Assembly (NCBI GenBank): GCA_016458225.1
Contig: JAEMGR010000005.1
Span: forward strand, 496,001-560,000
From: Myxococcaceae bacterium JPH2
GTDB lineage: Bacteria > Myxococcota > Myxococcia > Myxococcales > Myxococcaceae
Length of the DNA stretch: 64,000 nucleotides
Direction: 5' to 3'
In this document: positions 33,731 through 41,655 of the stretch, in pieces
Position numbering within the stretch: the first letter of the stretch is position 1
Layout: every line of letters starts with the position of its first letter
Notes under the pieces: generated by a model
The model's input: the letters and a program-made list of their open reading frames with translations, nothing else
The model's database searches: none
Told to the model about the DNA's origin: nothing
Translations under genes and position numbers: made by a program

Positions 33731-35290
33731 ATGACCCTGCCCAACATCACCCTGGCAGACTTCCTCCCGCTGCTACCCGCCCTCATCATGGTGGTGGGCG
33801 CCTCCATCCTGTTGCTGTCGGAGGTGTTCCTCTCCTCCTCGGCGTCCCGCGGGTACCAGGCGGTGCTCACCGTGGCCACGGCGGTGGCGGCCGGCCTGAC
33901 GGCCCTGGGGCTCATGTTCGAGCCGCCGCACGAGGTGTTCCTCGGCTACGGCGTGCTGGACCCCTTCTCCAGCTTCCTCACGCTGGTGGTCTGCGTGGGC
34001 CTGGCGCTGGCCGCGCTCGCGTCGGTGGGCTTCCTGCGCAAGCGCGGGGCGGAGCGCGGTGAGTTCTACGCGCTGATGCTCTTCGCCTCGGCGGGCATGA
34101 GCCTGCTGGCGATGTCCGCCGAGTTCATCACCCTCTTCGTCAACCTCGAGGTCCTCTCCGTCGCGACGTACGCGCTGACGGCGTACCTGCGGCGCGGGAC
34201 GCGGCCCAGCGAGGCGGGCTTCAAGTACTTCATCCTCGGCGCGTTCTCGTCCGCGGTGCTGCTGTACGGCACGGCGCTGCTGTACGGCGCCACGGGCACC
34301 ACGAAGCTGGCGGACATGGCCGGGCCGCTGTCGCAGGCGCTCGCCACCTCTCCGGCGCTCGTCTACACCGGCGCCATCCTGGTGGCCGCGGGCTTCGCCT
34401 TCAAGGTGGCGGCGGTCCCCTTCCACATGTGGACGCCAGACGTCTACGAGGGCGCGCCGACGCCTGTGACGGCGCTGATGAGCGCGGGCGTCAAGGCGGC
34501 GGCCTTCGCGGCCATGGTTCGCGTGTTCCTCACCGTGGGCAAGGGGATGGATCCGCACATGCCGCTGGCGCTGTTCTCCACGCTGGCGCTGCTGACCATG
34601 GTGGTGGGCAACCTGCTCGCCATCCCCCAGCGCAACGTGAAGCGCATGCTGGCGTACTCGTCCATCGCGCACGCGGGCTACCTGCTCCTGGGCGTGGCGG
34701 CGCTGTTCGTCACCGCGCCGGGCGAGCACTTCCGCATCCTGGGCGCCTCGGCGCTGACGGGCGGCACGCCGCTGGACGTGGCGCGCTCGGACGCGCTGCG
34801 CGGCATCCTGTACTACCTCCTGGCCTACACCTTCAGCGCGGTGGGCGCCTTCGCCCTCGTGTCCGCGCTGGAGCGCCGCGAGGACGAGGACAAGGGCACC
34901 GCGTGGGACCTGGAGCGCTTCAGCGGCCTGGCGCAGCGCCGTCCGGGTTGGGCGTTCGCCATGACTGCGTTCATGCTGTCGCTGGGCGGCATTCCGCCCA
35001 CCATCGGATTCATGAGCAAGCTGCTCATCTTCCAGTCCGCCATCGACGTGGGCCTCGTGGGCCTCACCATCGTCGCGGTGCTCTCCAGCGCGGCGGGCGT
35101 CTACTACTACCTGCGCGTGGTCGTTTACATGTTCATGCGGCCGGTCCCCGAGGGCGCCCAGGCGCTGGAGCGCAACTGGGGCACGGAGGTGGCGCTCGTC
35201 ATCTCCACCGTCGCCGTGGTGCTGCTGGGCATCATCCCCGGCCGCGTCAGCGAGTGGCTCGCCCACGCGGGCACCCTGTTCGGCCAGTAG
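33731..35290 (+). CDS. nuoN: NADH-quinone oxidoreductase subunit N
   Basis: Third antiporter-like subunit, 519 residues, 14 or so helices. Family segments are LFVNLEVLSVATYALTAYLR (key Glu), PFHMWTPDVYEGAPTPVTAL and RNVKRMLAYSSIAHAGYLLLG. It ends the nuo cluster. A GC-rich hairpin follows 26 bases later, then the pxr region. In Myxococcus xanthus nuoN is, as I recall, a neighbour of the pxr locus, which fits here. Confidence 0.96.
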   Translation: MTLPNITLADFLPLLPALIMVVGASILLLSEVFLSSSASRGYQAVLTVATAVAAGLTALGLMFEPPHEVFLGYGVLDPFSSFLTLVVCVGLALAALASVGFLRKRGAERGEFYALMLFASAGMSLLAMSAEFITLFVNLEVLSVATYALTAYLRRGTRPSEAGFKYFILGAFSSAVLLYGTALLYGATGTTKLADMAGPLSQALATSPALVYTGAILVAAGFAFKVAAVPFHMWTPDVYEGAPTPVTALMSAGVKAAAFAAMVRVFLTVGKGMDPHMPLALFSTLALLTMVVGNLLAIPQRNVKRMLAYSSIAHAGYLLLGVAALFVTAPGEHFRILGASALTGGTPLDVARSDALRGILYYLLAYTFSAVGAFALVSALERREDEDKGTAWDLERFSGLAQRRPGWAFAMTAFMLSLGGIPPTIGFMSKLLIFQSAIDVGLVGLTIVAVLSSAAGVYYYLRVVVYMFMRPVPEGAQALERNWGTEVALVISTVAVVLLGIIPGRVSEWLAHAGTLFGQ

Positions 35291-35315: not shown

Positions 35316-35345
35316 CGCCCGCCCGGCCTCGTGCCTGGGCGGGCG
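35316..35345 (+). terminator. Terminator of the nuo operon
   Basis: Arms cgcccgccc (35316-35324) and gggcgggcg (35337-35345) with a 12-base loop are followed by ttgtcattt. The hairpin is strong and the T-run partial. Confidence 0.7.
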
Positions 35346-35443: not shown

Positions 35444-35485
35444 AAAAAGAAGGCGGCCCGGCACCCCAAAAGGGTGTCGGGCCGC
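35444..35485 (-). terminator. Intrinsic terminator of pxr
   Basis: Read on the minus strand, the arms gcggcccgacaccc and gggtgccgggccgc (35485-35472 and 35466-35453), with one G-U pair and a 5-base loop, are followed by cttctttttc. A clear rho-independent terminator for a leftward transcript. Confidence 0.85.
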
Positions 35486-35565
35486 GGGTCTTCTCAAGGT
35501 GACGCACCGGAAGTGCTGAAAGGGTGGGGGGGAACCACTTTCAGCCTCGCTTCGATGTGTCCCGC
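35444..35565 (-). ncRNA. pxr: Small regulatory RNA Pxr, developmental gatekeeper
   Basis: A transcript of about 122 bases runs leftward from the predicted sigma54 start near 35565 to a T-run ending at 35444. Stem-loop 1 has arms gctgaaag and ctttcagc (35513-35543 region), extended by ggt/acc, with a loop holding seven consecutive C (plus-strand G, 35526-35532). A short second hairpin gcac/gtgc follows, then the terminator hairpin. Pxr of M. xanthus is known to block fruiting-body development in rich medium. It has three predicted stem-loops, a seven-cytosine run, and a sigma54 response-regulator gene beside it. All these traits are met. Identity rests on recall, not on an alignment. Confidence 0.8.
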
Positions 35566-35575
35566 CGATTCCTTT

Positions 35576-35591
35576 AGCAGGCGCCATGCCA
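35576..35591 (-). promoter_or_regulatory. Sigma54 (-24/-12) promoter of pxr
   Basis: The minus strand reads tggcatggcgcctgct. The GG (35590-35589) and GC (35578-35577) are 10 bases apart as required, with tggca at -24 and tgc at -12. The predicted start is near 35565. The neighbouring NtrC-family gene supplies a likely activator. Confidence 0.65.
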
Positions 35592-35664: not shown

Positions 35665-35701
35665 CCGATTTCACAGCTGAAATCGGGTTTCAGATTTGAA
35701 A
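35665..35701. promoter_or_regulatory. Palindromes upstream of the pxr promoter, candidate enhancer sites
   Basis: Arms ccgatttca (35665-35673) and tgaaatcgg (35678-35686) form a perfect palindrome centred about 110 bases upstream of the pxr start. A second, tttcagatttgaaa (35688-35701), follows at once. Position and symmetry fit an NtrC-type activator site. The first palindrome resembles two copies in the wecB-kdsB gap. Confidence 0.55.
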
Positions 35702-35739
35702 AGCCCTAATGGATTCGGGCGGTTGCATTTTTCATGGAT

Positions 35740-35772
35740 GAACCCGGTGGATTTCCCTGCTGCACTGGGTTC
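35740..35772 (-). terminator. Hairpin after the sigma54 activator gene
   Basis: Plus-strand arms gaacccggtg (35740-35749) and cactgggttc (35763-35772) pair with one G-T wobble, 27 bases past the stop of the activator gene. No T-run. It probably separates the selB-kinase-activator message from pxr. Confidence 0.45.
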
Positions 35773-35798: not shown

Positions 35799-37225
<1,427 letters not shown>

Positions 37226-37229
<4 letters not shown>

Positions 37230-39742
37230 GGGAAGGACGGGGGCTGCGACAGCGGCAGCCGGAAAGTGAAGGTGGTACCACGGCCGGGGGTGCTCTCCAC
37301 GGCAATCTCCCCGTGATGCTCCTCGAGGATGCGCTTCACCACCGCGAGCCCCAGGCCGGTGCCTTGGGCCTTGGTGGTGAAGAAGGGCTCGAAGACGCGG
37401 TGGAGCAGCTCGGCGGGAATGCCCGGGCCCTGGTCCGCCACGTCGATGCGGAGCTGCTCGCGGCCATCGAGGGCCTCGCGGCGCGCGCGCACCTGGAGCA
37501 GCCCGCCCTGGGGCATGGACTGCATGGCGTTGACGGCCACGTTCACCAGCGCCTGCCGGATGAGTCGCCGGTCCATGGGCACCGCGGGCAGCTCCGGCTC
37601 CACCTCCGCCTGGATGCGAACCGGGCGGTCCGCCGCGCCCTGCGCACGCGCTGCCTCCAGCGAGTCCTGGAGCACGCGGCCCAGGTCCTCGGGCTGGAGC
37701 ACGGGCTCGCGCGGGCGCGTGTAGTCCAGCAGGTCGCCCACGATGCGATTGAGGCGGTCGCTCTCCTCCCCCAGGATGTCGAGGAGCATGACCGCGTCTC
37801 CCTCGGGCTGGAGAAGTCGCCGCAGCGACGCCACCGCATTGAAGATGACGCCCAGCGGATTGCGGACCTCGTGGGCCACGATGGCGGACAGTTCACCCAA
37901 GGCCGCGAGCCGCTCCCGCTTCACCATCTCCGCGCGCGTGGCCGCCAACTCCGCGTAGCTGGCCCAGAGCGACTCGTACAGGCGCGCGTTCGCGATGGAG
38001 AGCGCGAGCTGTCCGCACGTGGCCTCGGCCAGGTCGATGAGCTCAGGCCCGAAGGCACGCGAGCGGCGCACGTCATCCAGCATCACCACGCCAATGAGTT
38101 CCTCGCGAGACGTCAGCGGCAGGGCCAGCAGCGCTTTCTCATGCAGCCGCTCGACCAACTCCGTGTCGTAGCCGCCCCGGCTCGTGGCCACGTCCTCGAT
38201 GGCGATGGGCCGCCGCTCCCGAGCCACCCGCGAGGCCAGGCCATCGCCATGCAGCGGAATGGCCACCGAGCGGAAGAACTCGCGATGCGCGCTCGACGCG
38301 GCGGCGCCGCGCAGCAGTCGGGCCTTCTCGTCGTAGAGCAGGATGAAGCAGTTGGAGACATCGAGCAGGTGGACGAGGAAGTCCGCCGCCACGTCCAGGA
38401 TGCTCGCGGTCTCCAGCACGCCCGAGGTCGTGCGGGCAAGGTCCAACAGCAGGCGCGTCTCGGTGAGCTGGCGCGCGGACTCGGCGCGCAGTCGGCGCTG
38501 TTCGAGCAGCGTCACGAGCAACTCCGCCAGCGTGGACAACAGGCGCGCATCACGCGCATCGAAGGGCCACTCGGCCGGACGCAGTATCTGGAGCGCGCCC
38601 ACCACCTCGCCGCCCCGGGTGAGTCGGGCCGCCGCGCCGCTCCCCAGGTTCCCTCCCGAGAACTCCCGCAGCGCGCGAGCGTGCGCATCCTGGGACAGCA
38701 CACCCGTTTCGACCGCGACGGCCCAGGGCGCCAGCACTCCCGCCAGCGCCTCCACCGAGCGGCCCTGCGCCACCACGGGCTCGAGCCCCACGTGCGCCAG
38801 CAGAGAGAGGGCACTGCCCGGCTCGGGCACGACGTGCAGCGTGACGGCGGTGGCGTGCAGCAACTCCGCCACGCGCGCGAGGAAGGCCTCGGGCGTGGGA
38901 GGCACCGGCTGCGCGACGAAGCGCGCCACCTCCGCCACGGCCTCCACTTCCCACCGACTGCGCGCGCCCTCCGCCTGCAAGCGCGCATCGGCGAGCGCGG
39001 CGCCCACCACCTTCGCGAACAGCGTCAGCACCGAGCCATGACGAGGCGCGACCCAAGGCCCCTCGACCCGCAGCACGTCCGCGAACTGCCCGCCGACGGG
39101 GAGATAGACGTGCGTGGGCTCGGAGCGGTCCGCGCCGCCGAACACAGGGCGCGCATCCGCCACCGCCTCCAACGCGAACTCCACGTCCGCGGGCGCGGGG
39201 TGGCCATCCGGAGACAGCAGGCGCTCGCCGTCCCAGCGCAGCAGTCGCGCGCGATAGCCCGCGGCGATGAGCCCCTCCACCGCGATGCGGCGCGCCGCCT
39301 CTTCCGAGTCCGCGGACACCAGCGCGGCGGAGGTCTCCACCAACCGCTCGGCGACCGCCAGCTCCATGGGCGGCTCGGGCAACACCAGACAGTTGACGAG
39401 CAGGCCCTGCCGCCCCTCCTCCAGCAGGATGGACGTGGCGCTGAGCACCACCTCGCGCGAGTGCCCGTCCACGCCGGGCACCAGATAGAAGTGCGACTGG
39501 CCTCCGAGCAGCTCGCCGGACTCCATGAGCCGGCGATAGCGCTCCCCTACCCGGCTGCGCTCCTCGGGCTGGACGAAGTCGAGGAAGGAGCGCCCTTCCA
39601 CCTGCTCGCGCGCCAGGCCCAACAGGCGCAGGTAGGCATCATTGGCGGCACGCACGCGCCCCGCGTCCAGCACCACCATGGGGTTGCCGAAGGGCTCGAT
39701 GAGGCCACGAACGGCCTGCTCGCTGTAGGGCTGGGAGTTCAT
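37226..39742 (-). CDS. Soluble PAS/GAF histidine kinase paired with the pxr activator (PxrK-like)
   Basis: Kinase of 838 residues from the ATG at 39742, which overlaps the selB stop. No membrane helix is seen, so it senses a cytosolic signal. A PAS domain covers about residues 15-100 ([20 protein letters not shown]). A long middle region has GAF-like character, with a clear GAF at about 420-575 ([18 protein letters not shown]). HisKA has His624 in [13 protein letters not shown]. The ATPase has an N-box [14 protein letters not shown] and [13 protein letters not shown]. Between selB and the activator it forms one coupled operon. Nutrient status would be a fitting input (inferred). Confidence 0.93.
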
Positions 39743-41655
39743 CCGCGACGCAGGACTCGCTTCTCGCCGACCCGGAGCGTCACCTTCTCCCGATCGAAAT
39801 ATTCGGACAGGGGGATGACGAACTTGCGGCTCTGGCCCACCAGCTCCTTGAAGGCCTGGGTGGAGATCTCCCGATTCTCTCTCAGGTGCGCCACCAGCCG
39901 CTCGCGGAGCTCCGCGATGGACGCCGCGCTGAAGCACAGCTCGTCGCTCACCTGCACCACGCCTCCTTCCGCCACCATCACGTGCAAGAGCTCGCGCAGA
40001 CGCTGCGAGGGGAGCTGGAGCTTCAGCGCCAGCTCATTGAAGGTCGGCGGCGCCAGCCCCGAGCCCGTCAGCTCCGAGGCGAGCCGCACCCGTGCCGCCT
40101 CATCTCCCAACGTCAGCGTGCGCCCACGGCCTTGCAGGCGCACCACGTCCTTCTCCCCCACCACCGTGCCCGCATCCACCAGCGCCTGCACCACACGCTG
40201 GAAGATGCGCGCGTCCAGCTCCAGGGACAGCCTCTGCCTCAGCTCCTCTCGCGACAACCCCTCGCGCAATGGCTCGCGCTCATGGAATGCGGCCAGCAGT
40301 GCCAGCGCCCGCTGCCGCAGTCCCTCGAACACCTCGCCGGAGACATAGAGTCGTCGCTCCCGGTCCACCAGCAGCACCGCGGCGCGGCTCCCGAGCAACT
40401 CCAGCGCGCGAGCCAGGACACGCGGCCCCAGCCCCGAGCGGCCGAAGAGTTCCGTCTGCGTGAGCCCTCGATAGCCCGCCTGCCGCAACAGCCACGCCAC
40501 CAGCCCCGATGGGTCCGCGTCCAGCAGCGGCTTCACCAGTTCGGCGCCACCCTTGCGACGACGCGGCGGTGAGATGGCGAGCACGCGCCCTCCCGCCACC
40601 GTCGCGCCTCGGCCCGGCAGCGCTCGCGCGCCCCGCAGGATGAAGCGCTGGCCCACCAACGCACCCACGGGCGCATCCAGACGCAGCTGCGCCAGCGCCG
40701 TCTCTCCGGGCTCCAGCGCCTCCAGGTCCAGCAGCGCCACGGTGGCCTCCACCTGCGCGGTGCCCAGATGCAACAGCAGCTTGCGTCGCCGAGGCAGCGC
40801 CGACTCCGCCGCGGGCAGCAGCGACAACTCCACATCCAACATGCGCGTCTCGGGAAGCTCACCCGCGCGCACCAACACCATGCCGCGATGAAGCGCGTCA
40901 GCCTCCACGCCCGCGAGGTTCACCGCCGCGCGCTGCCCTGCTTCCACCGCCTGCACCGCGCGACCATGGGTCTGCAGGCCACGCACGCGCAGCGGCCCCG
41001 GCATCCCCGGCAATAGCGACACGGCGTCTTCCACCGACAACGTCCCGGACAGCAGCGTGCCCGTCACCACGGAGCCGAAGCCCTTGATGGTGAAGGCTCG
41101 GTCCACCGGAAGAAACGCGGGCCCCTCCGCGGGACGCCGAGGCAGCCCCGCCACAGAGCGCGTGAGCGATGCCCGCAGCGCGTCCAAGCCCTCGCCCGTC
41201 TTCGAGGACACCGGCACCACCGGCGCCCCCTCCAGAAACGTGCCCGCGGTGAGCGCCGCGAGGTCCGCCTCCACGAGCGCGCGCCACTCCGGCCCCAGCT
41301 CCGGCAACAGGTCGGACTTGGTGAGCGCGATGACGCCCGCGCGCACGCCGAGGAGCCGGCAGATGTCCAGGTGCTCGCGCGTCTGGGGCATCACGCCCTC
41401 GTCCGACGCCACCACCAGCACCGCGAGGTCCACGCCGCCCGCGCCCGCGGCCATCGCCTTGACGAAGCGCTCGTGGCCGGGGACGTCCACCACACCGGCG
41501 ACCGTGCCGTCGTCCAGCGTGAGGTGAGCGAAGCCCAGCTCCAGGGTGATGCCGCGGCGCTTCTCTTCCTTGAGGCGGTCGGTGTCGATGCCCGTGAGGG
41601 CCTTCACCAGCGACGTCTTGCCGTGGTCGATGTGCCCCGCCGTCCCGATGATCAT
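39739..41655 (-). CDS. selB: Selenocysteine-specific elongation factor
   Basis: GTPase that delivers selenocysteyl-tRNA to UGA codons marked by a SECIS hairpin, 638 residues. The EF-Tu-like part has [19 protein letters not shown], the switch [25 protein letters not shown] and TKSD as G4. The C-terminal region of about 250 residues has the winged-helix repeats that bind SECIS RNA. It implies that the organism makes selenoproteins. selA, selD and the Sec tRNA are not in the window. Its last codon overlaps the kinase start, so selB heads the operon that ends with the pxr activator. Confidence 0.96.

Follow-up and report, generated by a model that had tools for sequence, protein, structure and literature searches.

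The closest described system is the small RNA Pxr of M. xanthus (Rfam family RF01812), which has a stem-loop with seven C (SL1), a terminator stem-loop (SL3) and a sigma54 promoter, with PxrK-PxrR encoded upstream and a gene for NADH dehydrogenase beyond (PMC5568312). Synthesis of Pxr in M. xanthus requires PxrR (PMC10217877), and changing C to A in the loop abolishes its function (PMC5568312, PMC5684412). pxrA (MXAN_1079), a proposed target, adjoins pxr downstream in this species (PMC11928866). Tandem pxr paralogs with their own sigma54 promoters, members of the same RNA family, are known from Cystobacter, and Pxr homologs taken from species with one copy control M. xanthus development (both PMC5568312). 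Earlier work presents Pxr as an innovation of recent date that is linked to fruiting-body development (PMC5568312, PMC8538405).

The window (the whole 64,000-nucleotide stretch of the Myxococcaceae bacterium JPH2 genome analysed here) shares with the M. xanthus system the seven-C SL1, the SL3 terminator, the sigma54 promoter, the PxrK-PxrR genes upstream and the NADH dehydrogenase gene beyond. Positions 35445-35552 of the minus strand match RF01812 with 122.8 bits (cut-off 80, E 1.2e-22), and the covariance-model alignment, which scores above the gathering cut-off, covers all 109 model positions. The encoded RNA is identical to that of genome G073 over 108 nt. Unlike the tandem paralogs of Cystobacter, only one pxr copy was found in the 8.99-Mb genome. 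The gene order is SelB, PxrK, PxrR, pxr, nuoN; the distance from pxr to nuoN is 154 bases, leaving no room for a pxrA. By itself, the locus is an ordinary new member of the known Pxr family. Its parts are as follows:

33731..35290, plus strand: nuoN, convergent neighbour of pxr (NCBIfam TIGR01770)
35316..35345, plus strand: terminator-like hairpin directly 3' of nuoN (terminator scan)
35445..35552, minus strand: Pxr sRNA, span of the Rfam model (RF01812, 122.8 bits; sole copy found in the genome)
about 35447..35495, minus strand: SL3, intrinsic terminator, then CTTCTTTTT (predicted fold and terminator scan)
about 35498..35508, minus strand: SL2 hairpin of the published type, GGUG/CACC, competing with leader helix P1 (fold without leader)
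35515..35548, minus strand: SL1 stem-loop, also P2 (predicted fold and Rfam structure)
35526..35532, minus strand: seven-C run in the SL1 loop, presumed seed (sequence; alignment A1)
35577..35591, minus strand: sigma54 -24/-12 promoter TGGCATGGCGCCTGC, GG-N10-GC (sequence; conservation across genomes)
35799..37229, minus strand: pxrR, NtrC-like sigma54 activator (domain match; relatives in other genomes)
37226..39745, minus strand: pxrK, sensor histidine kinase, start uncertain (domain match)
39739..41655, minus strand: selB, selenocysteine elongation factor, adjoining pxrK (domain match)

An earlier note, made from the letters of the window, had proposed a pxr locus here, and most of its claims held. 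The identification passed both alignment and the covariance-model check, over SL1 and over the whole RNA. The minus-strand -24/-12 promoter, which the note put at 35576-35591, is placed at 35577-35591; the stem-loop with seven consecutive C is present, as is the intrinsic terminator, the small hairpin forms when the RNA is folded without its leader, and the neighbours named (nuoN on one side, an activator and a kinase on the other) are NuoN, the NtrC-like PxrR and PxrK. The description as three stem-loops is perhaps an incomplete picture, as pairing between the leader and the SL2 region is possible. The claimed role as a developmental switch rests on the published M. xanthus work; transcription and control of development in this bacterium are inferred. 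We expect the RNA to start near 35566, an inference for which no transcript has been measured.

Upstream of the promoter we identified candidate sites for PxrR:

35688..35701, minus strand: predicted PxrR box 1, TTTCAAATCTGAAA (palindrome, genome pattern scan, conservation)
35669..35682, minus strand: predicted PxrR box 2, TTTCAGCTGTGAAA (palindrome, genome pattern scan, conservation)
35730..35743, minus strand: third box, imperfect, GTTCATCCATGAAA (sequence; a similar site lies upstream of pxr in G121)

Boxes 1 and 2 are perfect TTTCA-N4-TGAAA palindromes with five bases between them. Allowing up to three mismatches, the tandem pair occurs at a single place in the 9.0-Mb genome, and the reversed pattern does not occur. 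Among 48 PxrR-bearing genomes of the family to which pxr is confined by its Rfam model (f1), all 48 have a box (TTTCAN4TGMAA, at most one mismatch) upstream of pxr, compared with 46 of 2400 shuffles, and two boxes with at most two mismatches each are present in 46 (37 of 2400 shuffles). Within the 75 nt immediately preceding pxr, 47 of the 48 have the sigma54 pattern TGG[CA]N9GC, versus 140 of 2400 Markov shuffles. These tests used one sequence per genome, with G142 counted on its PxrR fragment, and left out G073 (almost a copy of the window) as well as a G064 copy with short upstream sequence. An upstream enhancer binding region has been mentioned for pxr (PMC5684412); no sequence for it was found in the text consulted. 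Assignment of the palindromes to PxrR is, to this extent, new here, and it remains a prediction without binding data.

Lacking a box upstream of pxr are all six genomes in which pxr was found without PxrR (G140, G141, G143-G145 and G104). Three of these (G140, G141 and G104) are also without the sigma54 pattern and have, by eye, sigma70-like promoter sequences instead. The sigma54 pattern is retained in the remaining three, which belong to genus g23 (2.1-2.7 Mb), and the rpoN family was found in two of them. Thus, PxrR is not needed for every pxr. In the three g23 genomes, which are placed in the same family f1, pxr adjoins nuoN.

At E up to 0.001, RF01812 was found in 93 of 195 genomes from the phylum, exclusively in f1 (93/96), and it scores above the cut-off in 61 of the 195. 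PxrR was identified in 87 of the 96 f1 genomes (E up to 1e-120, best match at least 71% identity) and as a fragment in G142; in several deep f1 lineages no complete PxrK is encoded next to PxrR. selB sits directly before pxrR in several deep lineages. A second model, R1, built from 52 sequences, additionally recovered pxr in G104 and, cut by a contig end, in G067, where no PxrR was found. We therefore withdrew the idea of a joint loss of pxr and PxrR in G067, G104 and G152. No pxr was found with either RF01812 or R1 in G152 (85% complete).

The RNA appears to be longer at its 5' end than the Rfam model allows. A model of the simpler hairpins described below (mini-Pxr) matched canonical Pxr and also took in bases that precede the start of the Rfam model, the leader pairing with the published SL2 region to form a helix, P1:

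35553..35561, minus strand: leader helix P1, 5' arm GACACATCG (fold; coevolution test)
35501..35509, minus strand: leader helix P1, 3' arm CGGTGCGTC (predicted fold)

P1 is present in the predicted fold of both the window RNA and that of G121 when 18 bases of leader are included. Without the leader, SL2 forms in the window RNA (-53.5 kcal/mol), and with the 18 nt of leader P1 replaces it (-61.8 kcal/mol, for a longer RNA). Support also comes from coevolution across 27 lineages, represented by one RNA each, in which partners were swapped among lineages: the duplex energies of the leaders with their own SL2 regions sum to -474.5, versus a permuted mean of -330.8 (sd 16.0), a value reached in none of 20000 permutations. 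The result was again 0/20000 with eight crown genera excluded and with two other choices of segments. For most crown genera the own P1 pair was no better than swapped pairs, because those sequences are alike, and P1 in the window RNA is thus inferred from its fold and from the deeper lineages. We conclude, on this sequence evidence, that the leader, which lies outside the Rfam model and is new here, coevolves with its partner in the SL2 region. P1 and SL2 share bases, from which we infer that they are mutually exclusive. The choice between them could possibly bear on the processing of Pxr-L to Pxr-S; this is no more than a proposal, and the nuclease making the active short form Pxr-S is still unknown (PMC10217877).

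Outside f1, PxrR relatives (57-67% identity) are encoded in 39 of the 49 genomes of the order, and short C-loop hairpins of the mini-Pxr kind lie downstream of PxrR in families f3 and f6, with three in tandem in G059. R1 matched f3 only weakly (31-36 bits). The loci of G036 and G031 comprise a kinase (48%), PxrR (58-60%), boxes, TGGCAC- or TGGCAT-N5-TTGC, a hairpin of ~75 nt (C8 loop, stem running into a U-tract) and nuoN; kinase matches adjoin PxrR in loci of f2, f3, f6 and f9. Mini-Pxr shares with Pxr the C-run loop, a long stem like P1 plus SL1, the predicted PxrR boxes and the sigma54 promoter. Unlike Pxr, it is about 75 nt long, its stem runs straight into the U-tract, and it has neither SL3 nor the published SL2. 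RF01812 gave no match at E up to 1 in the eight mini-Pxr loci searched, and these RNAs are therefore not filed under RF01812. Nevertheless, among the loci searched, a model built from mini-Pxr alone finds canonical Pxr including its leader (38.7 bits in L046, 30.1 bits in the window), and the canonical model finds the G036 element at 35.9 bits.

The mini-Pxr stem is 95.5% paired in an alignment of 17 sequences (A2). Eight pairs change on both sides, a number reached in one of 500 shuffles, and there are 27 double-change cells compared with a shuffled mean of 7.5 (0/500). The count of further pair types goes in the opposite direction (17 versus a shuffled mean of 20.2).

At E up to 0.001, a mini-Pxr model, R2, finds a match in 30 of the 49 genomes that belong to the order but not to f1, and in one of 50 outside the order. 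Within the order outside f1, its matches track PxrR, with 29 of 39 PxrR-bearing genomes matched versus one of ten without PxrR (G023, 28 bits; Fisher p 0.0003). This test is partly circular, as R2 was built from 15 of the tested genomes; without these source genomes the counts are 14/24 and 1/10 (p 0.02). Ten of the 39 PxrR-bearing genomes of the order outside f1 have no R2 match, and in two of these (G038 and G162) contigs end inside or at the element. At three loci (L272, L281, L289) assemblies break or enter N or long C runs at the expected C-loop hairpin. The RNA may thus be absent from drafts for technical reasons. Within f1, R2 reaches E 0.001 in 48 of 96 genomes, not including that of the window.

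Near PxrR, mini-Pxr is preceded by the sigma54 pattern in 16 of 16 cases and by a box in 15 of 16. Hairpins with boxes and sigma54 patterns also occur away from PxrR, in f2, f5, f7 and f8; elsewhere than near PxrR the counts are 18/19 for the sigma54 pattern and 16/19 for the box, with L318 taken at its corrected place. Among these 19 are L330, which probably matches by chance within coding sequence, L258, with a terminator of its own, and L322, a weak case. Altogether, mini-Pxr was identified in six other families of the order (f2, f3, f5, f6, f7 and f8), with weaker, altered forms in G040, G041, G048 and G049. None was found in the single genome of f4, and in f9 the G162 contig ends at or inside the element. 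Outside the order, one genome alone (G188) encodes a PxrR (62%) with two perfect TTTCATATATGAAA boxes, TGGCATTATATTTGC and a hairpin within about 300 bases; mini-Pxr is absent from the 500 bases downstream of PxrR in G014, G163 and G164. We propose a family of PxrR-driven C-loop sRNAs, defined by the hairpin, the sigma54 pattern and the TTTCAN4TGMAA box, its PxrR-dependent transcription being inferred from sequence alone.

Variation is slight in the SL1 loop and in the three pairs that close it, GGU/ACC. Six of the seven loop C are invariant in an alignment of 52 sequences (A1); the first C varies, the commonest loop change being C to U at this position, which would retain pairing to G. The run ranges from six to nine C. 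We searched five genomes on both strands for GTGGGGGGGAACC with up to one mismatch, using the reversed pattern as control, and obtained 17 sites versus 7 in G000, 18 versus 11 in G073, 17 versus 10 in G121, 13 versus 4 in G076 and 24 versus 20 in G097, each count including the genome's own pxr site. No conserved G-run target emerged: of the 84 non-pxr sites, one is common to all five genomes, in apparent coding sequence. Given the small excess over the control, we do not count this search as support. A tblastx comparison was swamped by GC-rich noise and was not used.

We are highly confident that the locus as a whole is best explained as a pxr gene run by PxrK-PxrR and derived from an order-wide family of C-loop sRNAs, an explanation for which there are no transcript, binding or phenotype data. 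We infer that PxrK phosphorylates PxrR, which is predicted to bind the two TTTCA-N4-TGAAA palindromes and would then drive sigma54 transcription of Pxr. The RNA would fold as one long interrupted hairpin (leader helix P1 and SL1 with its C7 loop), followed by the terminator SL3, a fold for which the evidence is that of sequence. The C7 loop is presumably a seed for G-runs in target mRNAs and would hold starvation genes off during growth, an inference for which no target was found. Pxr would be the derived, longer form of the family, and mini-Pxr the simpler form.

The alternative that survives best, which we nevertheless consider unlikely, is that Pxr is a real sRNA whose C-run loop binds protein, so that it acts by titrating an RNA-binding protein. 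In favour are the near constancy of the loop and its three closing pairs and the lack of a conserved target, which leaves titration open. Against it, C to U as the commonest loop change keeps pairing to G, and a run of 6 to 9 C suits pairing better than a fixed protein site; neither point is decisive.

Base pairing by the loop remains the preferred reading, and two further alternatives have much less in their favour. One is that mini-Pxr hairpins outside Myxococcaceae are unrelated C-loop terminators, alike by convergence. RF01812 misses the eight mini-Pxr loci, SL3 and the published SL2 are lacking, and the mini-Pxr model reaches E 0.001 in only half of the f1 genomes, without that of the window. 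Against this stand the same position between PxrR and nuoN in several genomes, the same boxes and promoter, the ability of the mini-Pxr and canonical models to find each other's loci, and the association of R2 matches with PxrR, which persists without the model genomes. We regard convergence as very improbable. Harder still to sustain is the view that there is no separate sRNA, and that the element merely serves the pxrK-pxrR transcript as its terminator or 3' UTR, or insulates against nuo read-through. The element does end in an intrinsic terminator and nuoN is convergent. Arguing against a mere terminator are the element's own sigma54 pattern (47/48) and box (48/48), the inversion of pxr relative to pxrR in three genomes, the box-like and promoter-like sequences of unlinked copies and the mostly invariant C-run. 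That the window pxr is a decayed relic without function, for which one can cite only the absence of expression data, is all but excluded by its intact structural elements and its identity with the G073 RNA.

The proposed PxrR-driven family also bears on where Pxr came from. In a tree of PxrR with 86 rows, all six families represented by at least two rows come out as single groups (support 100/98 or better). Family f7 lies beside f1 (98/96), on a long branch flagged as unsure by the tool, and carries both mini-Pxr (L311) and a Pxr that has a terminator of its own (L258). Support is weak (91/70) at the forks closest to the midpoint root. Most simply, we infer, mini-Pxr is ancestral and SL3 was gained at the base of f1 or earlier.

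Pxr apparently arose within Cystobacterineae, and members of Anaeromyxobacter form no multicellular fruits (PMC8538405); a passage of that paper on dehalogenans gives devRS and fruCD as lacking (PMC8538405). We take f3 (G031, G036) to include Anaeromyxobacter, on the basis of genome length and taxon layout and without a named record. No Pxr homolog was reported for Anaeromyxobacter in the open-access literature searched, which did not cover the 2014 pxr-origin paper. The presence of a mini-Pxr circuit in probable non-fruiting genomes indicates that the circuit probably predates the developmental role of Pxr. On a bolder reading of its presence in non-fruiting bacteria, its first job was another decision. 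We think it likely that Pxr arose late, as an elaboration of an ancient sRNA circuit in this phylum, in which PxrK-PxrR would act via tandem TTTCA-N4-TGAAA sites on a sigma54 promoter, and whose first task, perhaps the choice between growth and starvation, was later taken over by fruiting.

The main interest thus lies in the wider family and its shorter form in probable non-fruiting relatives. With a simpler relative under the same regulator in non-fruiting lineages, the origin of a multicellularity switch becomes testable in a unicellular relative. How Pxr is switched on, and what the processing nuclease might recognise, can be approached through the predicted PxrR sites and the leader helix.

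Several observations concern the placement and copy number of pxr. A DNA pattern scan of species-representative contigs returned 55 stretches, 51 of them titled as myxobacteria or Deltaproteobacteria. Of the remaining four, one titled Comamonas sp. KCTC 72670 (L108) carries a Myxococcus-type pxr, and its public name looks wrong; the other three, from Desulfovirgula and two Streptomyces (L099, L104, L126), are chance-like and were rejected, R1 giving a single match, of 14 bases, in L099 and nothing in L104 or L126. Also dropped were additional RF01812 matches without the C-loop in G073 (L074) and G093 (L075), and weak R1 matches (L259, L263, L264, L266-L268) in which no C-loop element could be read. 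Unlinked extra pxr-like copies with box-like and promoter-like sequences (L071, L072, L055, L073, L265) occur in G105, G110, G139 and G147; these assemblies are fragmented, and contamination is thus possible. pxr is inverted relative to pxrR in G068, G072 and G147 (L037, L041, L063), and we infer that the cassette is able to invert as a whole. In genera g3 and g6, up to five pxr copies lie side by side in arrays (L032-L036, L042-L045).
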